A stretch of 64,000 nucleotides of DNA. Source: Chitinophagales bacterium. GTDB lineage: Bacteria > Bacteroidota > Bacteroidia > Chitinophagales > JADIYW01. The notes under the pieces were generated by a model, which made no database searches, was not told the DNA's origin, and saw only the letters and a program-made list of their open reading frames with translations. The DNA lies in the NCBI GenBank assembly GCA_023957215.1, contig JAMLHH010000012.1:1-64000 (forward strand), in the 5' to 3' direction. The position numbers were made by a program, and so were the translations under genes. Shown piece by piece: positions 719-47,965 of this stretch (its first letter is position 1; the number at the start of each line of letters is the position of its first letter).

Positions 719-2220
719 TATATGGAATGACTTACTTTTCCTACCGAAACAATTCTAAGTCCAATAAAGATTAATAGCCCATTGAGCGCCAAATTTAAGA
801 ATCCAAATTGAAATCCTCCAAACAGCCATGCTGAGTTATAGTCAAGAGCCCACGTAATTAGTGGACATAAAATGCATATCCAAGGAACCCATTTGTTATT
901 GGGAATATGCTTGGTAAATATGGCAAATGAAAACAAGCCGAGCAGTGGTCCATAAGTCAATCCGGCTATTTTGAAGACGAGATTGATGACGGCACTATTG
1001 TTGGTGTAATAGAATACCATGATGATCATAAATAGCACAACAGAGATGCCTAGATGCACCATTGATCTTATTCTTTTGTTTTTTCTTTCCGGGTAATTCT
1101 TTTTTTCTAAATCCAGAAAGTCAATGCAGATGGAGGTTGTCAGTGCCGTCAATGCAGAATCTGAACTTGAATATGTGCTCGCTATAAGTCCCACAAAAAA
1201 TAAAATACATACTGTAACACCAAGATATTGCATGGCCAACATAGGGAAAAGCTCGTCAGATAATTCAGGTAATGGTATATTTTGCTTTGCTGCGTAGAGG
1301 TAAAGTGAGGCGCCAAGGGTTAGGAATAAAGTGACTACAATGACCAAATTAATGCAAAAAATAAACATATTTTTTTGGGAATCTTTCAAGGTACGACAGG
1401 ATAAGTTTTTTTGCATCATATCCTGATCCAGTCCGGTCATTACAATGGCAATCAATGCACCGCTTAAGAATTGTTTGAAGAAATTATTGGGATCTGACCA
1501 CCCATCTTGAAAGAAGAAGATTTGACTGTATTCGCTATGATATACCTGTTGAGCCATTTCTATGACATTGTTGCCAAGGGACTTACTTATGATAACAATA
1601 CACATAACTAAGGCGCTTAACATACTAAAAGTCAAAAGTACATCTGTATATAAAATAGTGTTAATGCCACCCTTTGCTGTGTATAAATAAATTAATCCTA
1701 TGGTCAAGAAAACGGTTGCTCCAAATGGAAGTCCCAATGGCGCTGTACAGAAATTGTGTAACACGATAGCGGCAAGGTAAAGGCGTAATGCAGAACCTAC
1801 ACCTCGGCTTATCAGGAAGAATGTTGCTCCGGTCTTATAAGATGAAAAACCAAGCCTTTTCTCCAAATAGCCGTATATAGATGTCAGATTATGCTTGTAA
1901 TAAAGGGGTAACAATACCGAACCGATGACGAGGTAGCCGGCAAGGTTGCCCATTACAAATTGTAGGTAGGAGAAAAATTTATTGGCACCATCAACACCAA
2001 CCTTCCCCGGTACACTGATAAATGTTACTCCGGACAATGAAGCACCTATCATGCCAATGGATACTAAGATCCAGGGTGCATTTCTACCTGCTAAGAAGAA
2101 TTTACTATTGCTTGAGTTTTTTCCGGTGAAATACGATATGGCAATTAAAACACTGAAATATATACCGATGATAGCAAGAATAGCATAAGGCGATAAAAGA
2201 GAATGGTAATTACCTAACAT
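718..2220 (-). CDS. Sodium:solute symporter (SSS family)
   Basis: This 500-residue polytopic inner-membrane protein has about 13 hydrophobic segments. The N-terminal region (YFTGKNSSNSKFFLAGRNAPW, then GASLSGVTFISVPG) is typical of the sodium/solute symporter family, and LDQDMMQKNLSC matches the conserved mid-protein region of its Bacteroidota members. It should couple inward sodium flow to uptake of a small organic solute; the substrate cannot be read from sequence. The gene lies upstream of the PIF1-like helicase with a one-base stop/start overlap (TAATG at 716-720). About 220 bp separate it from upp, so it probably has its own promoter, but no exact TAnnTTTG box was found there. Confidence 0.88.
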   Translation of the reverse strand: MLGNYHSLLSPYAILAIIGIYFSVLIAISYFTGKNSSNSKFFLAGRNAPWILVSIGMIGASLSGVTFISVPGKVGVDGANKFFSYLQFVMGNLAGYLVIGSVLLPLYYKHNLTSIYGYLEKRLGFSSYKTGATFFLISRGVGSALRLYLAAIVLHNFCTAPLGLPFGATVFLTIGLIYLYTAKGGINTILYTDVLLTFSMLSALVMCIVIISKSLGNNVIEMAQQVYHSEYSQIFFFQDGWSDPNNFFKQFLSGALIAIVMTGLDQDMMQKNLSCRTLKDSQKNMFIFCINLVIVVTLFLTLGASLYLYAAKQNIPLPELSDELFPMLAMQYLGVTVCILFFVGLIASTYSSSDSALTALTTSICIDFLDLEKKNYPERKNKRIRSMVHLGISVVLFMIIMVFYYTNNSAVINLVFKIAGLTYGPLLGLFSFAIFTKHIPNNKWVPWICILCPLITWALDYNSAWLFGGFQFGFLNLALNGLLIFIGLRIVSVGKVSHSI

Positions 2221-4438: not shown

Positions 4439-4470
4439 TAAAAAAATAAGCTGATTGGCGGTCAGCTTAT
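4439..4470 (-). terminator. Rho-independent terminator after the queA-DUF2795 unit
   Basis: A perfect 9-bp stem (ATAAGCTGA / TCAGCTTAT, 4446-4454 with 4462-4470) with a 7-base loop is followed on the minus strand by a run of six U. It lies 10 bp past the stop of the DUF2795 gene. Confidence 0.8.
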
Positions 4471-4479
4471 ATGTTTTAA

Positions 4480-4701
4480 TTAATATTCGTCTTCATTAAA
4501 TAAGAAGTCATCTCTTCGTGGATAATCAGGCCAAACGTCTTCAATCCCTTCAAACATTTCGCCTTCTTCTTCCATTTCTTGCAAATTTTCAATTACTTCC
4601 AAAGGCGCACCTGAACGAATTGCAAAGTCTATTAACTCGTCGCGTGTTGCAGGCCAAGGAGCATCTTCAAGATGGTGAGCCAATTCTAGTGTCCAATACA
4701 T
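4480..4701 (-). CDS. DUF2795 family small acidic protein
   Basis: This 73-residue, strongly acidic protein has the sequence pattern MYWTLELAHHLEDAPWPATRDELIDFAIRSG, followed by APLEVIENLQE. It matches short Bacteroidota proteins grouped under DUF2795, which are usually about 70-75 residues. Their function is unknown. It lies 38 bp after queA on the same strand and is closed by a terminator at 4439-4470, so it is probably the second gene of a queA operon. Confidence 0.8.
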   Translation of the reverse strand: MYWTLELAHHLEDAPWPATRDELIDFAIRSGAPLEVIENLQEMEEEGEMFEGIEDVWPDYPRRDDFLFNEDEY

Positions 4702-5804: not shown

Positions 5805-6085
5805 AATTAATAATTTCTATCAGCCTATTTTGAGCGCAAAAATAATTTTTTTAAACAATTCATTTGTTTTATTTTTTCCCGCACCCCATTTTAGCACTTT
5901 TTTTAATGGTTAAATAATAACTAAGGTGAATAACACAAATTGGACTCAAACTGTTGCATTTTCATTATAAATTATCTTTTATTGCACAATTAACAGTCAT
6001 TATAATGATTAAAAATGATGTTTTTTGCATCAATAAGTCAGGTCGATGTCCTTGTAAATATGATATTTCATATAGTTTATTATTT

Positions 6086-6093
6086 TACATTTG
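6086..6093 (+). promoter_or_regulatory. Bacteroidota -7 box upstream of the TonB receptor
   Basis: TACATTTG fits TAnnTTTG exactly. It ends 9 bp before the receptor ATG at 6103, so the transcript would be leaderless or nearly so. Confidence 0.5.
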
Positions 6094-6102
6094 TGCACTT
6101 AT

Positions 6103-7998
6103 ATGAAAAAGGTTGTTTTTATTACATGCTTGTTTTTTTTTATTCAAATTTTCGGCTTTACCCAAACTATGAATTTGGAGTTGGCTGAATTTACCATTAC
6201 ATCTTCATTTAATAAGCCGCCGTCATCTTCCTCATTTATCATAAAACACCAAGCGGATTCTAACAATCTACTTGTCGAAAAGTCTGTGGCTGAGGTCTTG
6301 CAAAATGATGGTGTTTACCTGAAGGCCTATAATAGTGGTGGATTAGTTACCATGGGTAATAGAGGATTTGGCGCAAGCAGTACCAAGATATTTTGGAACG
6401 GTTTTCTATTGAATAGTCCGCTGAATGGAACTTTTGACCTTAACTTACAAGGCATATATCCCACTTCCACAGAGGTTATCTTTAATAAATCCAATAGTCC
6501 CGTAGAAGGGAATATTTCCGGAGCCGGAGGGAGTGTATGGATTAATGAAGTTATCCCTTCGGGTAATGAGACTTTACGAGGAGCCTTCTCAATCGGTTCT
6601 TTTTCTGCATATAAGGGTAACGCCGGCTATACATTAAAGAGAAATAAATTTACCAATAACTTTCAAATTGGATACATATCGGCTAAGAATGATTATTGGT
6701 ATAGACCTGTAACCGGCTTTAATCCAAATAAAGAGAGACTCCAAAACGCCGATATTAGACAGTTTAATGTTTCTAATGCGACAGATATACGCTTAAATAA
6801 GTCTAAATTTGAGGTGCGCCTTCATTACAGCAATTCAGCTCGAGGCATCCCCCCTCCAATTACCGCCAATGGCCCGGTATCCTTCCAAACTGACCAGTCA
6901 TTCAAAGGTGGCCTGGCTTGGATTACTTATATAAATGCCCAAAGTGTAGTTTCCTTCAATACAGCTGTGTTGTACGATATTTTGAACTATTTTCCGGTAA
7001 GGAGTATTGCCTCTTCTTTGAATTATCACGTTACTTCATTACCATTTTCTTTCCGATGGGAGTATCGACGTTGGAATCACAAATTAAATGTTCACCTTAA
7101 TCAGACATACTATCATGTACAGAGCTCTGAAGTTACAGCACCCGATGAATTTTTGCATATTGGAACGATTGAATTTCAAAAAGACGAGCCAGGTTGGCTT
7201 GATTATGGATTTAATGTTCAACAAATGATTCGAAATGGCAATAGCATAAAGCCTTCATTCCGGCTTTTTGGCGGAACAAAGCTTGGTACTGACTTGAAGT
7301 GGACACTTTCCTATGCCGAAACCCGCCAAATGCCTACCATAAATGATCGTTATTGGCCGCTATCAGGAAACCCGCAATTAAAATATGAAACGAATAAGTC
7401 TATTGAGTTGGGAATTTATTTTAAAAAGAAAATACATAGTTATTGGAATTTATCATCTTCTCTGGCTTTATTTAACAATGTAGTAGATGATTGGATAGGA
7501 TGGATACAGGTGAATGGAGACTTTTGGAGACCATTTAATGTGCAAAAAGTTCGTTCTCAGGGTATTGACTTTTACAATACATGGAAATGGAATATTCGAC
7601 CTGATTTGGCAATTGAATTGAACTATAATCTAAATATTGCCAATCCACTTGTTTTGAAAAAATATTTAGGCAATCCGGCTCAGGTCGGAAAACGATTGAT
7701 TTATGTTCCTTTAAGCCAACAAGCCATTACGCTTCCTATAATTTTTCGGTCATTTACTTTGAAACCTTCTTGGAGACATGTTTCATCCAGATATACTACT
7801 GCTGATAATTCGGAGGATTATGCGTTAGAATCCTTTGTTTTGTTTGATGTTGAAGGACGTTATCGCCTTGGATTTAAGCAAATTAAAACCAATATGATGG
7901 TAAAAATTGAAAATGTATTCAACCGACCTTATGAAATGATTGCATATAGACCTATGCCGGGAAGATACGTAGAAATCGGATTTGGATTTGGACTATAA
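6103..7998 (+). CDS. TonB-dependent outer-membrane receptor
   Basis: This protein of about 631 residues starts with a clear signal peptide (KKVVFITCLFFFIQIFGFTQ). It has a plug domain without a carboxypeptidase-regulatory-like N-domain: SVAEVLQNDGVYLKAYNSGG, then GNRGFGASSTKIFWNGFLLN and GAGGSVWIN. The rest alternates amphipathic beta strands ending in VEIGFGFGL at the outer-membrane C-terminus. I chose the ATG at 6103 over an upstream in-frame TTG at 6091 because the signal peptide begins there. Size and lack of the N-domain resemble BtuB-like receptors, but the ligand is not determinable and no cobalamin riboswitch was recognised upstream. bshC follows after 77 bp. Confidence 0.85.
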   Translation: MKKVVFITCLFFFIQIFGFTQTMNLELAEFTITSSFNKPPSSSSFIIKHQADSNNLLVEKSVAEVLQNDGVYLKAYNSGGLVTMGNRGFGASSTKIFWNGFLLNSPLNGTFDLNLQGIYPTSTEVIFNKSNSPVEGNISGAGGSVWINEVIPSGNETLRGAFSIGSFSAYKGNAGYTLKRNKFTNNFQIGYISAKNDYWYRPVTGFNPNKERLQNADIRQFNVSNATDIRLNKSKFEVRLHYSNSARGIPPPITANGPVSFQTDQSFKGGLAWITYINAQSVVSFNTAVLYDILNYFPVRSIASSLNYHVTSLPFSFRWEYRRWNHKLNVHLNQTYYHVQSSEVTAPDEFLHIGTIEFQKDEPGWLDYGFNVQQMIRNGNSIKPSFRLFGGTKLGTDLKWTLSYAETRQMPTINDRYWPLSGNPQLKYETNKSIELGIYFKKKIHSYWNLSSSLALFNNVVDDWIGWIQVNGDFWRPFNVQKVRSQGIDFYNTWKWNIRPDLAIELNYNLNIANPLVLKKYLGNPAQVGKRLIYVPLSQQAITLPIIFRSFTLKPSWRHVSSRYTTADNSEDYALESFVLFDVEGRYRLGFKQIKTNMMVKIENVFNRPYEMIAYRPMPGRYVEIGFGFGL

Positions 7999-9770: not shown

Positions 9771-10622
9771 TTATTTCACTCCAAGAATACTCAGCATATT
9801 TTCCAAAGTAGCTTTCAGGTCTTTTCTATTGACGATGGTATCTAAGAAGCCATTTTCAAGGGTTGACTCAGCTGTTTGAAAGCCTTCGGGCAGGTCTCTT
9901 TTTATAGTTTCTCTAATTACACGTGGGCCGGCAAAGCCAATCAATGCTTTAGGTTCGGCAATATTTAGGTCTCCTAACATAGCGAAAGAAGCCGTAACGC
10001 CACCTGTAGTTGGGTCAGTCATGAGTGAGATATAAGGGAGTCCTTCATTGGAGAGCATTGTTAGCATAGCGGAAGTTTTAGCGAGCTGCATTAGGGAGAA
10101 AGCAGATTCCATCATACGTGCTCCACCGCTTTTGGAGATAATCAACAACGCGGTTCGGTGTTTTATGCTGTATTCAATGGCTAAAGCTATTTTTTCTCCT
10201 ACCACAGAACCCATAGACCCGCCAATAAAGGCAAAGTCCATACATGCTATGGTTAAAGGTATATTAAATTCGCCTACATGCCCTGTTGCTACAGATAAGG
10301 CGTCAATAAGTTTGGTTTTTTTCTGAGCTTCAACAAGGCGGTCTTTATAAGGTTTTAAGTCAACAAAGTTTAGAAAATCTTCCGATTCTATATTGTTAAA
10401 GAGGATAGAATAGCCCGGGTTGAGAATAATTGAAAAGTACTCTTTAGAGCCAATACGGGCGTGATAGTCGCATTTCGGACATTTGTAGAAGTTTTCCCTA
10501 AACTCCTTCATAGTACTCGCCTCCTTGCATTCTTTACACTTGTACCATAAGCCGTCGGGAGCTTCTTTTTTGTTTTTGGTCGTGGTTTGAATACCTTCTT
10601 TTAATCTCTTGAACCAGCTCAT
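9771..10622 (-). CDS. accD: Acetyl-CoA carboxylase carboxyltransferase subunit beta
   Basis: This 283-residue protein moves the carboxyl group from biotin to acetyl-CoA, giving malonyl-CoA for fatty acid synthesis. The N-terminal zinc ribbon is visible as four cysteines, C29-x2-C32 and C48-x2-C51. The crotonase-like carboxyltransferase body contains MDFAFIGGSMGSVVGEK, SGGARMMES, TDPTTGGVTASFAMLGD and EPKALIGFAGPRVI. accA is not in the window, which is usual in Bacteroidota. It is transcribed away from dapB; a TAnnTTTG box on the minus strand lies at 10704-10711. Confidence 0.95.
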   Translation of the reverse strand: MSWFKRLKEGIQTTTKNKKEAPDGLWYKCKECKEASTMKEFRENFYKCPKCDYHARIGSKEYFSIILNPGYSILFNNIESEDFLNFVDLKPYKDRLVEAQKKTKLIDALSVATGHVGEFNIPLTIACMDFAFIGGSMGSVVGEKIALAIEYSIKHRTALLIISKSGGARMMESAFSLMQLAKTSAMLTMLSNEGLPYISLMTDPTTGGVTASFAMLGDLNIAEPKALIGFAGPRVIRETIKRDLPEGFQTAESTLENGFLDTIVNRKDLKATLENMLSILGVK

Positions 10623-10711: not shown

Positions 10712-10874
10712 CGATTATTTTAACAAAACCCGATGATTGTATTTTAGATAGCAGATATTGTTGTAAAAAATTGTTCTATGCTATACGTCCGTTTTTTTGT
10801 TGTAGGTGTATCAGTGTGCATGTGGATGTTCGTGTATTTTTCTAAATAAATGAGAATTAGATTATATTTACAGC

Positions 10875-11597
10875 ATGAGAGTTGCATTAATTGGTTACGG
10901 AAAAATGGGTCACACTATTGAGTCTATATTGCTTGAAAGAGGGCATACGATATCTTACAAAGTATCGATTGACAACACAGAGACAATTCATCAAATCAAT
11001 TTAGATAATACAGATGTTTGTATCGAATTTACTCATCCTGGTGTGGCGTTTGATAATATCAGGCTTTTATCAGATAGTGGGCTGCCAGTGGTATGTGGCA
11101 CGACAGGATGGTATGATCGGCTGGAAGAGGCTAAAGCAATTGTATTAAAGAATAATACGGCTCTTGTTGTAGCATCTAATTTTAGTATTGGAGTTAATTT
11201 ATTTTTTGAAGCAGCTAGAGATTTAGCAAGGTTAATGCATGGACAGGATTATACCATTCGTATCAATGAATCCCATCATACTGAGAAGAAAGATGCACCC
11301 AGTGGGACAGCTATTACGCTGAGTGAAGAGGTCAGGAGTGTATATAATGAGTATTCCGGTTATCAGTTGAATAGGGATAGTGATCCATCCTTGTTGCCGA
11401 TTTTTGCCTCCAGGATAGCGGATGTACCGGGCACACATGAACTCATCTTTAAAAGTGGAGTCGATGCAATAGTGTTGCAGCATGTCGCTTTCAATCGACA
11501 GGGATTTGCTCTCGGAGCCGTTGTTGCAGCTGAATATATTTGGGATAAAAAGGGAATATTTTCCATCAGAGATATTTTGATGTCTGTGAAAGCTTGA
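10875..11597 (+). CDS. dapB: 4-Hydroxy-tetrahydrodipicolinate reductase
   Basis: This 240-residue cytosolic enzyme reduces the dihydrodipicolinate precursor in the lysine/diaminopimelate pathway with NAD(P)H. The Rossmann start MRVALIGYGKMGHTIE, the CIEFTHPG and VVCGTTGWYD segments, NFSIGVNLFFE, the catalytic ESHHTEKKDAPSGTA (His and Lys, substrate binding GT) and the C-terminal NRQGFALGAVVAAEY are all present. It is slightly short, as in other Bacteroidota DapB. It ends in TGA. The gene is divergent from accD and followed by rnpB after about 95 bp. Confidence 0.95.
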   Translation: MRVALIGYGKMGHTIESILLERGHTISYKVSIDNTETIHQINLDNTDVCIEFTHPGVAFDNIRLLSDSGLPVVCGTTGWYDRLEEAKAIVLKNNTALVVASNFSIGVNLFFEAARDLARLMHGQDYTIRINESHHTEKKDAPSGTAITLSEEVRSVYNEYSGYQLNRDSDPSLLPIFASRIADVPGTHELIFKSGVDAIVLQHVAFNRQGFALGAVVAAEYIWDKKGIFSIRDILMSVKA

Positions 11598-19365: not shown

Positions 19366-19744
19366 AGTTTGTAATTTTTTAGTCCCACTCGTATGGCTTT
19401 TCGGTTTCGCCCCGTTTTTATAGTGGTCGCTGGTCTCCACATTTTGTTTGTCAATCGTAACAATCAAGAACTGTCAAACCAGAAGAACGGTGGTTCTCGT
19501 GTTTGTCTGTGTCCGTTGTAGTGTCGTTTAAACTTCTGACTAACGTTAAAGTCAAGCAGTTATGATCAGTTAGTTACAATTACAAGTTTTTCATTAACCA
19601 AGTCAAATTTAGCAATTTGTTTTTTAATTCTTTTCCACTATTCCCAACTTTACTCACTTTTTATTGTTTTTTTTCAAGTGGTGTTCGTGATATCGCTTCG
19701 CTAAGTTCTTTTTGCTACCAAATGCGTGGGCTGTCCTGTCGTTG
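19366..19744. other. Gene-free stretch upstream of the WG array
   Basis: About 380 bp between the WG array start and the decayed AlbA_2 gene. I see no open frame worth calling, no exact TAnnTTTG box and no clear repeat; base composition is less AT-rich near 19390-19550. Confidence 0.5.
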
Positions 19745-40691: not shown

Positions 40692-42284
40692 ATGAGTGAA
40701 GACCAAAAACGAATATTAGAACAACAACTTTGGAATATAGCCAATACTTTGAGGGGCAAAATGAATGCGGATGAGTTCCGTGATTACATTTTGGGATTTA
40801 TTTTCTACAAGTATCTGAGTGAAAAGATGGAGTTGTTTGCCAACAACATCTTGCAACAAGACAAAATTAAGTTTCGTGAGATAATACCAAAAACAGCACA
40901 AGCCAACGATTTTTTAGAAGCCATCAAAGAAGAAGCTTTGGAGAAATTAGGCTACTTCCTTAGACCCGAAGAACTCTTTACCGAAGTGGCAAAAAGAGGG
41001 ATGGGTGAAAATGAAGACATTGACATTTTTGACGAAAGCAAAACAAATTTCATACTTGAAGACCTTCAAAAAATTCTGACCAATATCCAGATGAGCACAA
41101 TGGGCACTGAGAGCGAAGAGGATTTTGACAACCTCTTTGAAGACATGGATTTGAACAGCACTAAATTAGGAAAAACTCCCGAAGCAAGAAATGCAATCAT
41201 CGCAAAAGTGCTTTCACATCTTGACAAGATTGATTTCAAATTGGAGAAAACAGAATTAGATGTTTTGGGTGATGCTTACGAATATTTAATTGGTCAATTT
41301 GCCAGCGGTGCGGGTAAAAAAGCAGGTGAATTTTACACACCACAGGAAGTTTCTAAAATATTGGCAAAGGTTGTTACTACAGGCAAGCAAAAGCTAAAAT
41401 CGGTTTATGACCCTACTTGTGGTTCAGGTTCTTTGTTGTTGCGTGTAGCCCGAGAAGTGAAAGATGTAGCCATGTTTTACGGACAAGAAATGAACCGTAC
41501 CACCTACAACCTTGCCCGAATGAATATGATTCTGCACGATGTACATTACAGAAAATTTGATATTAAGCAGGAAGATACCTTAGAATATCCGCAACACCTA
41601 GATGATTTACCCTTTGAAGCCATTGTAGCCAACCCGCCTTTCTCTGCCAAGTGGAGTGCCAACCCTCTTTTTCTGAGTGATGACCGTTTTAGTCAATACG
41701 GAAAGTTAGCCCCGGCTAGCAAAGCCGATTGGGCATTTGTACAGCACATGATTTATCATTTGGCTGAAAATGGAACGATGGCAATAGTATTGCCACACGG
41801 GGCTTTGTTCAGAGGTGGAGCGGAACAACACATTCGCAAATTTTTGATTGAAAACAAAAACTATTTAGATGCCGTGATTGGATTGCCTGAAAAGATATTT
41901 TTTGGTACGGACATACCCACTTGTATTATGGTTTTCAAGAAATGTAGAGAAAACCCGAATGATGTCGTTTTTATTGATGCCAGCCAACACTATGCGAAAG
42001 CAACTCAAAACTATTTGAGACAAGAGGACATTGATAAAATCATCAACACCTATCAGAACAGGATAACAGAAGACAAGTACAGTTTTGTGGCTTCTCTTGA
42101 GCAGATTCGTGAAAACGATTACAACTTGAACATACCTCGCTATGTTGACACTTTTGAGGAAGAAGAGGAAATTGATTTAGATGCAGTTTCTAACCAATTG
42201 GTTGATTTGGACAAAGCCATTAAAACGACCGAAATCGAGATAGCTAGATTTTGTAAAGAATTGGGAATTGCCACACCTTTTTAA
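40692..42284 (+). CDS. hsdM: Type I restriction-modification methyltransferase HsdM
   Basis: This 530-residue protein is the N6-adenine methyltransferase subunit of a type I system. Residues about 1-130 are the HsdM N-domain (RILEQQLWNIANTLRGKMNA, YKYLSEKMELF). SAM binding follows at VYDPTCGSGSLLLRVARE (motif I), then the catalytic NPPF in IVANPPFSAKWSANP, and HGALFRGGAEQHIRKFLIEN. The C-terminus (DKAIKTTEIEIARFCKELGI) is a helix that packs on HsdS. It resembles type IC enzymes. The stop at 42284 directly touches the left inverted repeat of the inserted GxxExxY cassette. Confidence 0.94.
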   Translation: MSEDQKRILEQQLWNIANTLRGKMNADEFRDYILGFIFYKYLSEKMELFANNILQQDKIKFREIIPKTAQANDFLEAIKEEALEKLGYFLRPEELFTEVAKRGMGENEDIDIFDESKTNFILEDLQKILTNIQMSTMGTESEEDFDNLFEDMDLNSTKLGKTPEARNAIIAKVLSHLDKIDFKLEKTELDVLGDAYEYLIGQFASGAGKKAGEFYTPQEVSKILAKVVTTGKQKLKSVYDPTCGSGSLLLRVAREVKDVAMFYGQEMNRTTYNLARMNMILHDVHYRKFDIKQEDTLEYPQHLDDLPFEAIVANPPFSAKWSANPLFLSDDRFSQYGKLAPASKADWAFVQHMIYHLAENGTMAIVLPHGALFRGGAEQHIRKFLIENKNYLDAVIGLPEKIFFGTDIPTCIMVFKKCRENPNDVVFIDASQHYAKATQNYLRQEDIDKIINTYQNRITEDKYSFVASLEQIRENDYNLNIPRYVDTFEEEEEIDLDAVSNQLVDLDKAIKTTEIEIARFCKELGIATPF

Positions 42285-42778
42285 TTGTCTGAATTAGGAT
42301 TTTTAGGATGAAAAGATTAAAGGATTAAGTCAGCAAGATTATGAAATATGAAGAATTAACACATAAAATAATTGGCTGTGCAATGAAAGTGCACAACACA
42401 TTGGGTAATGGTTTTCAAGAAGTAATTTATCAAAGAGCTTTAGCCATTGAAATGAATAAGCTTGGAATAGAATTTCAGCGTGAAATGGAAATGACTATTT
42501 TCTATGATGGTTTTGATATTGGCACAAGAAGGGTTGATTTTTTTGTAGAGGAAAATATAATGGTGGAATTAAAAGCCTTAATTAGACTCGAAGAAGTTCA
42601 TTTAGCCCAGGCTATGAATTACTGTCAAGCATACAATTTACCAATAGGTTTGCTTATAAACTTTGGTGCAAAAAGTTTAGAATTTAAAAGAGTATATAAT
42701 CTTACACATCCCGAAAATAAAGATTACGTAAAAAATAATCCTATCATCCAAAAATCAAACAAATCCTAATTCAGACAA
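42285..42778. repeat. Cassette bounded by perfect 18-bp inverted repeats
   Basis: TTGTCTGAATTAGGATTT at 42285-42302 is matched by its exact reverse complement AAATCCTAATTCAGACAA at 42761-42778. The left copy begins at the base after the hsdM stop; the right copy ends at the base before the hsdS ATG. Inside the left end are further GGATT words (TAGGATG, AAGGATT). The 494-bp unit holds only the GxxExxY gene, whose last codons run into the right repeat. Confidence 0.93.
42341..42769 (+). CDS. GxxExxY protein (PD-(D/E)XK nuclease superfamily)
   Basis: This 142-residue protein has the family motif in HNTLGNGFQEVIYQRALAIE, the nuclease-like core RRVDFFVEENIMVELKALIR (Asp, Glu-x-Lys) and AQAMNYCQAYNLPIGLLINF ending GAKSLEFKRVY. 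It is homologous to the gene at 25498-25875 but clearly diverged from it, so the two are not a recent duplication. The C-terminal tail (NPIIQKSNKS) is encoded by sequence of the right repeat. It lies between hsdM and hsdS, in the same direction, and is not a known part of type I systems. Confidence 0.92.
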   Translation: MKYEELTHKIIGCAMKVHNTLGNGFQEVIYQRALAIEMNKLGIEFQREMEMTIFYDGFDIGTRRVDFFVEENIMVELKALIRLEEVHLAQAMNYCQAYNLPIGLLINFGAKSLEFKRVYNLTHPENKDYVKNNPIIQKSNKS

Positions 42779-43987
42779 ATGAGAAATACCAATACAAAAC
42801 CAGTTTTGCGATTTCCTGAATTTAAAGAGGATTGGAATTTCTTTTATGGGAATGAACTATTTGAACCAATTTCAAACAAAAACCATAATTCTGATTTGCC
42901 AATTTTGGCTATTTCTCAAGAATTTGGTGCAGTGCCAAGAGATTTAATTAATTATCAAATTTCAGTTACCGATAAAAGTGTATCAAGTTATAAGGTTGTC
43001 GAGAAGGGAGATTTCATTATTAGTTTAAGGTCGTTTCAAGGTGGAATTGAATATTCGGAGTATAAAGGAATTTGTAGTCCTGCATATATCATTCTTCGTC
43101 CAAAAAGAGATATTGAAGATTATTTTTTCAAATACTATTTAAAAACTTTCAGATACATCCAACATTTACAAAGTAAATTAGAAGGTATAAGAGATGGGAA
43201 AATGATTAGTTATAAATATTTTTCTGAGATAAAATTACCTTTCCCTTCCCTCACTGAACAGAAAAAAATTACAGATTTTTTAATTCAAATAGACAACCGA
43301 ATTGCTCAACTCACAGAGAAAAAAGAGCATTTAGAACTATACAAAAAAGGAATTACGCAAAAAATATTCTCCCAAAAACTTCGCTTTAAAGATGAAAATG
43401 GAAAGGATTTTCCTAAGTGGGAAGCAAAGAAATTTGAAAATATCTTTAAAAGAGTAACTACAAAAAATACCGAGAACAATGATAATGTTCTTACAATCTC
43501 TGCACAATACGGTCTAATTAATCAGCAAGATTTCTTCAACAAGTCTGTATCAGCAAATGATGTAACAGGTTATTATTTAATCAAAAAAGGTGATTTTGCT
43601 TACAACAAAAGCTATTCAAAAGGTTATCCAATGGGTGCGATTAAACCATTGAAGAAATATGAAAAAGGAGTTGTTTCAACTCTTTACATCTGTTTCAATA
43701 TAAAAGACAATAGCAATCCCGACTTCTATGAACATTATTTTGAAAGCGGAAAAATTAATAAGCAAATACACAAAATAGCTCAGGAAGGGGCGAGAAATCA
43801 CGGCTTATTAAATTTAAGTGTTGTTGAATTTTTCAAAGACATTGACATTTTAAAACCGCATATCAAGGAACAAGAAAAAATCGCCTCATTTTTAAATAAA
43901 ATCAGCCAGCAAATCAGTCTGGTCAATGAGCAATTGGAAGAAACCCGAACCTTTAAAAGGGCATTATTAAGTAAAATGTTCTGCTAG
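42779..43987 (+). CDS. hsdS: Type I restriction-modification specificity subunit HsdS
   Basis: This 402-residue subunit reads the two halves of the target site. Two target-recognition domains (about residues 12-150 and 215-350) are each followed by a conserved helix: LPFPSLTEQKKITDFLIQID with RIAQLTEKKEHLELYKKGIT, and HIKEQEKIASFLNKISQQIS ending KRALLSKMFC. The start ATG is one base after the right cassette repeat. The DNA sequence recognised cannot be predicted. Confidence 0.92.
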   Translation: MRNTNTKPVLRFPEFKEDWNFFYGNELFEPISNKNHNSDLPILAISQEFGAVPRDLINYQISVTDKSVSSYKVVEKGDFIISLRSFQGGIEYSEYKGICSPAYIILRPKRDIEDYFFKYYLKTFRYIQHLQSKLEGIRDGKMISYKYFSEIKLPFPSLTEQKKITDFLIQIDNRIAQLTEKKEHLELYKKGITQKIFSQKLRFKDENGKDFPKWEAKKFENIFKRVTTKNTENNDNVLTISAQYGLINQQDFFNKSVSANDVTGYYLIKKGDFAYNKSYSKGYPMGAIKPLKKYEKGVVSTLYICFNIKDNSNPDFYEHYFESGKINKQIHKIAQEGARNHGLLNLSVVEFFKDIDILKPHIKEQEKIASFLNKISQQISLVNEQLEETRTFKRALLSKMFC

Positions 43988-44056
43988 TTAAATGACTGAT
44001 ATGGAAACAAATAGAAAATATAGTTTGAAAATGTTTACAGAATTCAAAAATAGTTG

Positions 44057-44064
44057 TACCTTTG
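44057..44064 (+). promoter_or_regulatory. Promoter -7 box of the AbiF RNA/gene
   Basis: TACCTTTG, an exact TAnnTTTG box. Transcription would start near 44070, just before the hairpin leader, so the AbiF module has its own promoter inside the hsd locus. Confidence 0.65.
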
Positions 44065-44069
44065 CACCA

Positions 44070-44121
44070 ACAGTACCCGTTCAGCATACCGTAAGATCTG
44101 CTAGCGGGTCATTCTTTTTTT
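44070..44121 (+). ncRNA. Small hairpin leader RNA upstream of abiF (AbiF-type RNA)
   Basis: The leader folds with ACCCG (44075-44079) pairing to CGGGT (44105-44109) and AGCA (44083-44086) to TGCT (44099-44102), and ends in a T7 run at 44115-44121, like a terminator. It starts 6 bp after a promoter box and ends 6 bp before the abiF ATG. From memory, a conserved structured RNA is known directly upstream of AbiF/Abi_2 genes and acts as an RNA antitoxin; position, size and fold agree with that, but I could not run a covariance search. Confidence 0.7.
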
Positions 44122-44127
44122 ATAGCT

Positions 44128-45051
44128 ATGGCAAATAAGGTTCCACACTCCATAGCAGACCAAATTGCCTTGCTCAAACAGCGAGGAATGCTCTTCAAGG
44201 ATGAGCCTTCTGCACACCATTTTTTAGAAAACATCAGCTACTACCGTCTCAAAGGGTATTGGTGGGATATGCAAGCCGATTATACGCTTCATACGTTAAA
44301 ACCCAACACCTACTTTGAAGATATATTAGACCGCTATACTTTTGACAGGCACTTGCGTTTGATTCTATTTGATGCCATAGAACGCATAGAAATTGCCCTA
44401 CGCACCAAAATGATTTACCACCTTTCAATGTCGTATGGTGGTTTATGGTATTTGAACCCAAATCTATTTGAAACTACGCCTCTACCATCAGACCCAAACA
44501 TAACTATTTATCAAAACACCATCCTTGAACTCAAAAAGGAATTTTTCAGAAGTCAGGAAATTTTTATCAAAGACCAAAGACGAAGATATCCCAATCAGGA
44601 TGCTGATGCTTGGAAAATAATGGAAGTAGCTTCGATGGGTACATTATCAAAGCTTTACAAAAATTTGAAACACCAATTGCCCGAAAAAGCAACGATTGCA
44701 AATGAAATGGGATTGAACCTTCATAACGAACTTTCAAGTTGGTTAGAAGCTATTACTTATGTTAGAAACATTATTGCCCATCATTCCAGGTTGTGGAGTA
44801 GAAATATGGTAAAAGTACCAATTGCCAATTTGAATAACCCACTTTCCATTTGGTTAGACAAACCGCTAAACCCAGTTCAAAGCAAGAAACCATTTTTAAT
44901 CATAAGTACAATGGTTTACTTGTGTAACGAAGTAACGCCCAATCATCAAATAAAAAGTAAAATATTAACCCTTTTTGCCAATAACCCCAATATTCCTATT
45001 TACAAATTAGGATTCTTGAACAATTGGCAGAACCAAGGTTTATGGACATAA
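44128..45051 (+). CDS. Abi_2/AbiF family HEPN abortive-infection protein
   Basis: This 307-residue protein has the Abi_2 layout: SIADQIALLKQRGMLFKDEP, SAHHFLENISYYRLKGYWWD, YTFDRHLRLILFDAIERIEI followed by ALRTKMIYHLS, and the HEPN RNase motif RNIIAHH (Arg213, His218; R-x4-H) with SRLWSRNM. HEPN proteins of this group cleave RNA and stop growth on phage infection. It sits between hsdS and hsdR, with its own promoter and RNA leader, and its stop is 1 bp before the hsdR ATG, so readthrough from it should also express hsdR. AbiF proteins have been proposed as relatives of the Cas13 HEPN ancestor. Confidence 0.85.
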   Translation: MANKVPHSIADQIALLKQRGMLFKDEPSAHHFLENISYYRLKGYWWDMQADYTLHTLKPNTYFEDILDRYTFDRHLRLILFDAIERIEIALRTKMIYHLSMSYGGLWYLNPNLFETTPLPSDPNITIYQNTILELKKEFFRSQEIFIKDQRRRYPNQDADAWKIMEVASMGTLSKLYKNLKHQLPEKATIANEMGLNLHNELSSWLEAITYVRNIIAHHSRLWSRNMVKVPIANLNNPLSIWLDKPLNPVQSKKPFLIISTMVYLCNEVTPNHQIKSKILTLFANNPNIPIYKLGFLNNWQNQGLWT

Positions 45052-45052
45052 A

Positions 45053-47965
45053 ATGAGTAAACAAAGTGAACAAATATTAGAAGAACAGTTGATTGCCCAG
45101 TTACAAAAATTGGGTTACGGATATATTACACTCAACAATGAAGCAGCATTGTTGGGCAATCTTAAAAACCAATTAGAAAAGCATAATCAAATTTCGCTTT
45201 CAGATGCTGAATTTGACAAGATATTAAACCTCTTAAACAAAGGTTCGGTTTTTGAAAAATCAAAAACGCTTCGTCAAAAGCAACACATTATAAGAGATAA
45301 CGGTGATAATCTTTATTTTGAATTTTTGAATACAGAACATTGGTGTCAAAACCAATATCAAGTAACCAACCAAGTAAGCCAAGAAGGAAAATACAAAAAC
45401 CGTTATGATGTTACGATTTTAATCAACGGTTTGCCTTTAGTTCAAATAGAATTGAAACGCAGAGGTTTAGAACTCAAAGAAGCATTTAATCAAATCAATC
45501 GCTATCAACGCCATTCTTTTGGAGCAAATTCCGCTTTGTATCAATACGTTCAAATTTTCGTCATTAGTAATGGCGTAAATACAAAGTATTACGCCAACAA
45601 TCGCAACCAAAGTTTCAAGCAAACTTTCTATTGGACAGATTTTGAAAATAAGCGACTGACCAATATTCTCAACGGTTTTACAGATGCTTTTTTAGAGCCT
45701 TGCCACATCAGTAAAATGATTTGCAAGTACATTGTTTTGAATGAGGCTTACAAAATACCAATGGTGCTTCGTCCTTATCAATTTTATGCGGTAGAAGCAT
45801 TGATTGACCGAGTAAAAAACTCCAACAAAAACGGTTATATATGGCATACCACAGGTTCGGGCAAGACCTTAACCAGTTTTAAAGCCAGTCAAATTTTGAT
45901 GAATTTCCCAGAAGTACACAAAGTTGTTTTTGTGGTGGACAGAAAAGATTTGGATTACCAAACCACCAAAGAGTTCAACAGTTTTAGTGATGGTTGCATT
46001 GACGGAACAGACAACACTGCCAATTTGGTAAAGCAGTTTATCGGTACATACAAAGACAAAAAAGGTGAAGCCAAAAACACAAAATTGATTGTTACTACTA
46101 TTCAGAAACTCAATACCGCTATCAGTAAGTTGAAGTACGAAAAGAAAATGGCAGATTTGAAAGACAAGCGAATCATTTTCATTTTTGACGAATGCCACCG
46201 AAGCCAATTTGGAGAAACACACAACAGAATAAAAGAGTATTTTAACAATGCTCAAATGTTTGGTTTTACAGGCACGCCCATTTTTGCCGACAATGCCAAT
46301 AAAAATGAATTGGGCAAACGAACAACCAAAGACCTTTTTGAAGACTGTTTGCACAAATACGTCATTACAGATGCCATCAAAGACGAAAACGTATTGAAGT
46401 TTTCAGTTGAATATGTAGGCAGATACAAGCAAAAAGATACTACAACCGAAATTGATATTGAGGTGGAAGACATTGACACGCAGGAGTTGATGGAAGATTC
46501 AACCCGATTAGAAAAAATTGTCGATTACATCATCAACAATCACAACCGAAAAACGCACAGCAAAGATTTTTCTGCCATGTTTTGTGTGGACAGCGTAAAG
46601 TCATTGATTCGTTATTACGATATTTTCAAACGCAAAAAATTAGCAGGAGAACACAACCTAAATATTGCCACCATTTTCAGTTATGCAGCCAACGAAGATG
46701 ATGCTGATGCCAACGGTTTTATACCCGAAGAAGTTTCTGTAGTGGAAGAACCAAGAGCTTTGTATGGCTTGCAAGCCCACAGCCGAGAGAAATTGGATGA
46801 ATATATTGAAGACTACAATCAATTGTATGATGTAAAATATTCCACCAAAACCAGCGAAGATTTTTACAACTACTACAACGACATTTCAAAGAAACTGAAA
46901 GATCGTGAACGCCAACCCGAAAATGTAAATAATCGCATTGATGTTTTATTGGTGGTGAATATGTTCCTGACAGGCTTTGATGCCAAGAAAGTGAACACGC
47001 TTTATGTGGACAAAAACTTAAAATATCACGGATTAATTCAAGCGTTCAGCCGAACCAATCGAATTTTAAACGAACAGAAATCACAGGGAAATATTGTTGT
47101 TTTCAGAAACCTTAAAAACCGAACAGACGAAGCCATTACCCTATTCAGCAACAAAGAAGCGATTGAGGTTATCATCATGAAACCTTATGAAGATTATGTT
47201 GCCAAGTTTGATGAAGCGTTTGAAAAATTGTTGGAAGTTACACCAACTACGGAAGCAGTAAATGACCTTGAAAGCGAAGAAGATGAACTGAATTTCATTA
47301 AGGCATTTCGTGACTTGATGAGAATTAAAAACATTCTCACAGCCTTTTCAGACTTCAAATGGGAAGACTTAGGAATGAACGAACAACTTTTTGAGGACTT
47401 TAAAAGCAAATATCTTGACCTTTACGACAAAGTAAAAAGCAACCATCAAAAGGAGAAAGTTTCCATTTTGGAAGATGTGGACTTTGAATTAGAGTTGATT
47501 CACCGTGATGAAATCAATGTTGCGTATATCATTCAGCTTTTAATCAAACTGAAATCTCAAACACAGAAAGACACCACCAAAGCAGAAAAGGAAATTTTTA
47601 ACCTATTAGGTACAGAAGCAACATTAAGGAGTAAACGAGAACTCATAGAGAAATTCATTTTAGAGAATCTTCCAGTCATAAGCGATTCCGACAACATTAC
47701 ACCTGCATTTGAGCAGTTTTGGAACGAAGAACAACAAAAGGCATTTTCTAAAATCGTACAAGAAGAAAATCTATCAGCCCCAAAAACAGAAAAATTGATT
47801 GAAGATTATCTGTTTGCAGAAAGAGAGCCACTCCGTGATGAAGTTTTGGAACTTATTGAGGGTGAAAAACCCAGTTTATTGCAACGTAAAAAATTAGGTG
47901 ATAGAATTTTGAAACGGATTGTTGATTTCGTGGAGACATTTATTAACGGAATGAATTTGAATTGA
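45053..47965 (+). CDS. hsdR: Type I restriction endonuclease subunit HsdR
   Basis: This 970-residue subunit translocates DNA and cuts it. The N-terminal nuclease domain has NRYDVTILINGLPLVQIELK (Asp, Glu-x-Lys). The SF2 motor follows: YIWHTTGSGKTLTSF (Walker A), IIFIFDECHRSQFGETHNRI (motif II, DECH), FGFTGTPIF (motif III), VVNMFLTGFDAKKVNTLYVD and HGLIQAFSRTNRIL (motif VI). The C-terminal helical domain contacts HsdM. Length is normal. The start is 1 bp after the abiF stop. With hsdM and hsdS it completes a type I system despite two inserted genes. Confidence 0.94.
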   Translation: MSKQSEQILEEQLIAQLQKLGYGYITLNNEAALLGNLKNQLEKHNQISLSDAEFDKILNLLNKGSVFEKSKTLRQKQHIIRDNGDNLYFEFLNTEHWCQNQYQVTNQVSQEGKYKNRYDVTILINGLPLVQIELKRRGLELKEAFNQINRYQRHSFGANSALYQYVQIFVISNGVNTKYYANNRNQSFKQTFYWTDFENKRLTNILNGFTDAFLEPCHISKMICKYIVLNEAYKIPMVLRPYQFYAVEALIDRVKNSNKNGYIWHTTGSGKTLTSFKASQILMNFPEVHKVVFVVDRKDLDYQTTKEFNSFSDGCIDGTDNTANLVKQFIGTYKDKKGEAKNTKLIVTTIQKLNTAISKLKYEKKMADLKDKRIIFIFDECHRSQFGETHNRIKEYFNNAQMFGFTGTPIFADNANKNELGKRTTKDLFEDCLHKYVITDAIKDENVLKFSVEYVGRYKQKDTTTEIDIEVEDIDTQELMEDSTRLEKIVDYIINNHNRKTHSKDFSAMFCVDSVKSLIRYYDIFKRKKLAGEHNLNIATIFSYAANEDDADANGFIPEEVSVVEEPRALYGLQAHSREKLDEYIEDYNQLYDVKYSTKTSEDFYNYYNDISKKLKDRERQPENVNNRIDVLLVVNMFLTGFDAKKVNTLYVDKNLKYHGLIQAFSRTNRILNEQKSQGNIVVFRNLKNRTDEAITLFSNKEAIEVIIMKPYEDYVAKFDEAFEKLLEVTPTTEAVNDLESEEDELNFIKAFRDLMRIKNILTAFSDFKWEDLGMNEQLFEDFKSKYLDLYDKVKSNHQKEKVSILEDVDFELELIHRDEINVAYIIQLLIKLKSQTQKDTTKAEKEIFNLLGTEATLRSKRELIEKFILENLPVISDSDNITPAFEQFWNEEQQKAFSKIVQEENLSAPKTEKLIEDYLFAEREPLRDEVLELIEGEKPSLLQRKKLGDRILKRIVDFVETFINGMNLN

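Follow-up and report, generated by a model that had tools for sequence, protein, structure and literature searches.

An AbiF-type HEPN gene with its own conserved hairpin RNA, a probable RNA-antitoxin module, between hsdS and hsdR of a Bacteroidota type I restriction operon

We analysed a 64,000-nucleotide stretch of DNA from a Chitinophagales bacterium (the window) and found a promoter, a hairpin RNA, a terminator and a HEPN gene, with joint conservation. These elements probably form a self-contained module of ~1.05 kb (promoter, terminated hairpin RNA and abiF), which occupies the slot between hsdS and hsdR of a type I restriction-modification (RM) operon and whose RNA would inhibit AbiF. 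The module is most likely a type III-like pair of RNA antitoxin and HEPN toxin. We infer binding of the RNA to AbiF, inhibition of the RNase, growth arrest and the trigger by analogy with RCd22 of C. difficile. The first-pass annotation had proposed an RNA-controlled toxin set off by loss or attack of the RM operon. The results support an AbiF-type HEPN protein that has its own conserved, structured RNA and is probably RNA-controlled, but not this trigger.

All genes of the locus lie on the plus strand. The methyltransferase HsdM (40692-42284) was assigned by Pfam and by TIGR00497 (446 bits, above the NCBIfam cut-off), the specificity subunit HsdS (42779-43987) by PF01420, and the restriction subunit HsdR (45053-47965) by TIGR00348 (475 bits, NCBIfam) together with HSDR_N and EcoR124_C (Pfam). 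The AbiF/Abi_2 HEPN protein of 307 aa is encoded at 44128-45051; hsdR starts 2 nt past the abiF stop, and the RNA terminator stands between hsdS and hsdR. The window sequence and Pfam confirmed every point of the arrangement first described, namely a promoter, a hairpin leader ending in seven T and an Abi_2 gene with an R-x4-H motif, placed between hsdS and hsdR. That description had passed over a gene between hsdM and hsdS (42341-42769) for a GxxExxY/PDDEXK_3 nuclease-like protein (PF13366, TIGR04256). Elsewhere, the minus strand of the window carries a DUF805 RNA (RF03081, 80 bits) at 19378-19445, and the genome holds a second type I RM operon (G000:C12, locus L152), whose HsdR is 36-44% identical.

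The AbiF protein matched PF07751 (Abi_2) with E = 4e-55 and 187 bits against a gathering cut-off of 25.6, and PADLOC called it AbiD. Arg213 (44764-44766) and His218 (44779-44781), correctly placed in the first-pass annotation, form an R-x4-H motif that was invariant in 48 homologues. The sole PDB sequence match was 8vz6 (E = 2e-37), whose R210 and H215 align with R213 and H218. An AF2 model from 48 homologues reached a pLDDT of 94.8, and Foldseek matched it to 8vz6, 'PbAbiF dimer bound to ncRNA' (TM 0.86/0.89, E=6e-18), with nothing else below E = 1. Pfam and PADLOC detected no domain beside Abi_2 and no RM-sensing domain. An earlier structural study grouped AbiD/F with Cas13an HEPN domains (PMC12165695). 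The Pfam match, the invariant motif and the fold match of the model indicate that the protein is an AbiF-type HEPN protein and a predicted RNase.

The AbiF-associated, antitoxin-like hairpin RNA (44069-44121, plus strand, ~52 nt) carries a conserved 5' AACAGU and a 12-nt loop, UACCGUAAGAUC (44087-44098), and has a U7 terminator end. Folding and pair counts showed an outer stem of ACCCGTT (44075-44081) with AGCGGGT (44103-44109), and fold comparison across classes showed an inner stem of AGCA (44083-44086) with TGCT (44099-44102). The ACCCG/CGGGT stem of the first-pass annotation is present, but the actual stem is longer. A lone bulged C (C44082) lies on the 5' side, and there is no 3' bulge. 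Compared with dinucleotide shuffles, the hairpin's minimum free energy of -13.5 kcal/mol gave a z of -3.3. The run of seven T after the stem covers 44115-44121, and abiF begins 6 nt later.

We collected 80 AbiF homologues (42-100% identity) from genome contigs by tblastn, and built an RNA model, R1, from 54 distinct RNAs drawn from the 80 AbiF loci and L002. The window RNA scored 74.2 bits. R1 matched directly upstream of abiF, on the coding strand, in 79 of the 80 homologous loci, and the only locus with no match, L040, has just 128 nt of upstream sequence; recovery by R1 is partly by construction, and position, strand and covariation are the independent evidence. The results showed that 96.3% of cells were paired in this structure, with changes on both sides in 7 of 10 pairs. 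Double-change cells numbered 40 against 10.4 in shuffles, and shifting the partner by 1-3 columns left only 27-41% paired. The loop followed the consensus CCRUAAGAWC with linked R and W positions (A/A 30, G/T 19, G/A 5, A/T 0). Judged by these comparisons, the hairpin RNA is real and conserved across Bacteroidota. The near-constancy of the loop throughout the phylum led us to reject a Cas13-like guide role. Over 395 phylum genomes R1 matched in five, the window's included. A match at L156 looks like decay or chance.

The promoter (44034-44064, plus strand) is of the Bacteroidota type, with a weak -33-like TTTA at 44034-44037 and a -7 element, TACCTTTG, at 44057-44064, and was identified by its position relative to the RNA across loci. 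Across the 79 loci and the window (80 sequences), TAnnTTTG ended exactly 4 nt 5' of RNA nucleotide 1 in 45, lay 35-51 nt upstream in 28, and had no exact match in 6. The upstream position implies an RNA form with a 5' extension in those 28 sequences. Loci with this shifted promoter, for example L066 and L073, came from Prevotella, Porphyromonas and their relatives, and the extension of RNAs of this type may require processing to the common 5' end. Scans for sigma-70 promoters and simple terminators tell nothing in Bacteroidota.

Read from the sequence, the RNA, the U7 terminator and abiF lie in one transcription unit, which is the layout of a type III toxin-antitoxin system. An antitoxin role fits the RNA because both precedents, RCd22 (PMC12373285) and AbiFr with PbAbiF (PMC12737573), inhibit by RNA. 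RCd22 neutralises the C. difficile AbiF in cis and in trans by protein binding, and termination within its leader leaves the downstream abiF less expressed (PMC12373285). Inhibition of PbAbiF by AbiFr is mentioned in a review (PMC12737573, citing Zilberzwige-Tal 2025). By analogy, the promoter would constantly supply the ~52-nt RNA, which would bind AbiF dimers and block their RNase activity. Termination would restrict abiF mRNA to readthrough, and the RNA would act as antitoxin with a second role as attenuator. Were the RNA supply too small for the AbiF present, as might happen when a phage takes over transcription, free AbiF would cut host RNA and growth would stop. It is unlikely that the hairpin is only a cis attenuator of transcription, lowering abiF and hsdR without binding AbiF. 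The U7 run directly after the stem and the lowering of a downstream gene by leader termination (PMC12373285) agree with such a role, but the loop and the 5' AACAGU are constrained far beyond the needs of a terminator, the R and W positions of the loop are linked, and its known relatives work in trans, through binding to AbiF (PMC12373285).

A match to Rfam's abiF RNA family, whose absence the first-pass annotation had listed as part of a refutation, did not materialise. RF03085 was not matched in the window by cmscan, either at gathering (37 bits) or at E<=5, nor in the window's genome at E<=10; a search of 198 phylum genomes gave zero matches but had no responding control, so it is silent on absence. 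RF03085 has the layout CCCGCC-A-AGC-11-nt loop-GCU-CAAAUC-GGCGGG. The two RNAs share an outer stem, a short inner stem, a loop of 11-12 nt and a position directly upstream of an AbiF gene, whereas the window RNA lacks the 3' bulge CAAAUC, has another loop sequence and gave no covariance-model match. Beside more distant AbiFs (L002, L092, L108, L122, L125 and the second copy in L036), we found bulged intermediates with a window-like loop (CCRUAAGAWC or close) and an RF03085-like 3' bulge of 5-6 nt. R1 scores were 52-80 bits for the window class, 27-48 for most intermediates and 18-20 for RF03085-type RNAs. Because the homologues show these intermediate shapes, the window RNA is, on sequence and structure comparison, a diverged relative of the RF03085 abiF RNA. 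The novelty lies in an AbiF paired with a bulge-less RNA that the RF03085 model does not see; Zilberzwige-Tal 2025 (Cell 188:1925) may already cover this class.

The 3' bulge measures 0 nt in the window and the other folded members of its clade, 2 nt in L088 at the clade base, and 5-6 nt in the other classes. In the AbiF tree, L092, the second copy of L036 and L146, which are bulged rows, fell outside the clade of L088 and 56 further rows (support 100/95); L044b sits on a very long branch, and its placement was not used. Loss of the bulge once, at the base of the window's AbiF clade, is a reading and not a proof, since the root is a midpoint root and long branches meet there. In a review, the residues C32 and U38 of PbAbiFr, in a single-stranded bulge, are said to inhibit the nuclease (PMC12737573). 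The inhibition mode of PbAbiF is not simply transferable, because the window RNA is missing the 5-6-nt bulge and the review places the inhibitory C32 and U38 in a bulge. A bulge-less RNA would have to touch AbiF somewhat differently from the bulged RNAs.

DNA homology to near-identical copies of the module that lie outside RM operons (L016-L020, 82-88% DNA identity) starts between 43937 and 44012 and goes exactly as far as the abiF stop at 45051. These bounds mark promoter, RNA and abiF as the transfer unit. Near-identical modules (89-96%) are thus seen in other places than RM operons. L015 (Belliella filtrata) shares both the module and the RM operon with the window but has another HsdS (93% DNA identity over module and hsdR). 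RM genes of the window type flank 7 of the 80 loci (L015, L031, L032, L036, L044, L049 and L051), and L088 has an N6_Mtase gene upstream; RM-embedded homologues number at least 8 of 80, a lower bound because flanks are often short. In at least 70 of the 80 loci, the available flanking DNA had no match to the window RM genes, and the immediate neighbours of other abiF copies were mixed. The slot itself varies. Tandem AbiF copies of different lineage occupy it in L036 and L044; in G094 an AbiF 41-43% identical, accompanied by a bulged RNA, adjoins an HsdR that shares 78-80% identity with that of the window; in G057 the slot is empty, with hsdS and hsdR overlapping (TAATG); and in G021 and G024 it holds other genes. 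The AbiF tree needs six changes of RM location, four of them forced by well supported branches. These results mark the hsdS-hsdR junction as a slot that recurrently takes up cargo and indicate, as far as genome comparison tells, that RM embedding recurs while the module is independent of RM.

These observations also bear on the possibility that AbiF is tied to the RM operon as its guard and released on RM loss or inhibition. The module does lie between hsdS and hsdR, such embedding is recurrent, and Abi2 genes embedded in R-M operons were noted in 2013 (PMC3710099). We nevertheless consider a guard very unlikely, given the many loci whose available DNA had no match to the window RM genes, the near-identical copies outside RM, the module's own promoter and RNA, a tree on which RM location was gained or lost at least 4-6 times, and an AbiF with no RM-sensing domain. 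The trigger by RM loss or attack in the first-pass annotation is not supported, on similar grounds: most homologues stand outside RM, the promoter is the module's own, and homology to the non-RM copies ends at the abiF stop.

L017 contains attC-like imperfect inverted repeats at 4448-4622, 5922-6105, 10090-10264 and ~10713-10877, separated by genes, one of which repeats begins at the abiF stop. The repeats suggest that one way for the module to travel is in an integron-like cassette array. Integron carriage is not claimed, as no integrase match reaches the IntI cut-off and the highest-scoring match is on a different contig.

Readthrough past the hairpin could also raise hsdR, as first proposed, which fits the anatomy of the locus. 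Whether the module serves chiefly to control hsdR, with the terminator delaying or limiting restriction and abiF as a passenger, is a separate matter. The 2-nt spacing of hsdR from abiF and the terminator upstream would suit this role, as would L051, where a second, window-type RNA lies 9 nt before hsdR with no abiF. However, RNA-AbiF pairs mostly occur without hsdR. The L051 RNA has lost its TAnnTTTG promoter and has an A/T loop, a combination unseen in the AbiF-linked RNAs of A1, and is therefore probably a remnant. The promoter consensus also has a match within abiF (44314-44344), at chance level, which could serve hsdR as well; the window's count of such matches is ~2x chance. Control of hsdR as the main function is thus quite improbable, and the antitoxin reading is preferred. 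It has a broader version that we hold to be doubtful: that the RNA of this clade, after a single loss of the bulge at the clade base, inhibits AbiF through contacts unlike those of bulged RNAs, and that a module placed in an RM operon also links release of the toxin to raised HsdR expression, since both lie behind the antitoxin's own terminator.

Broken pairs were also found. L154 has an intact RNA (1501-1551, minus strand, 66.5 bits) followed by an abiF cut short at ~28 codons. RNAs with no AbiF downstream stand at 5958 in L049 and at 6097 and 7432 in L051; both loci hold bulged ones, and L051 also has the window-type copy before hsdR. RNA kept with toxin lost is as expected from an antitoxin model, with a harmless RNA and a toxic protein, although the cases are few. 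At L070, two RNA-AbiF modules (4939 and 6738) with equal RNA scores share one locus. DUF3800-VIII RNAs (RF03075) flank the AbiF module of L051 (4661-4725 and 5907-5972, minus strand) and occur in L049 (4817-4882, minus strand), one of them above the gathering score; a DUF3800 protein gene lies in the hsdS-hsdR slot of L036.

It has been proposed that Cas13 and its crRNA descend from AbiF and its RNA. The AbiF systems described here, whose RNA class is widespread in Bacteroidota and lacks the bulge typical of the known class, escape surveys that rely on RF03085. This class is a test, provided by nature, of the RNA features on which control of an AbiF nuclease depends, and the RM slot, where AbiF modules are found swapped, doubled or decayed, shows how modules enter restriction operons.

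PrrC guards a type I enzyme. A PrrC-type guard has a dedicated hsd association and an ATPase/sensor region fused to the HEPN nuclease, whereas at least 8 of the 80 homologous loci are in RM operons, at least 70 have no match to the window RM genes in the available DNA, and only Abi_2 was detected in the window AbiF. Classical type III systems such as ToxIN carry tandem RNA repeats; the window RNA has none and is a single motif, the one R1 match in its genome. The Abi2/AbiF/AbiD genes of R-M operons show the same kind of embedding, but the part of that paper concerned with them describes neither an RNA nor repeated insertion into one slot (PMC3710099). AbiFr/PbAbiF (8vz6) shares the AbiF HEPN fold, the R-x4-H motif and an associated non-coding RNA, and differs in ~30% protein identity and in the RM context of the window; the closest PbAbiF relatives found (L103-L105) have RF03085-type RNAs with a 6-nt 3' bulge, which the window RNA lacks. 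RCd22-AbiF of C. difficile has two RF03085 motifs per RNA and lies in a prophage lysis module, in contrast to the single, differently shaped motif in an RM operon here, but it shares the order promoter, RNA, terminator and abiF and is the direct RNA-antitoxin precedent (PMC12373285).
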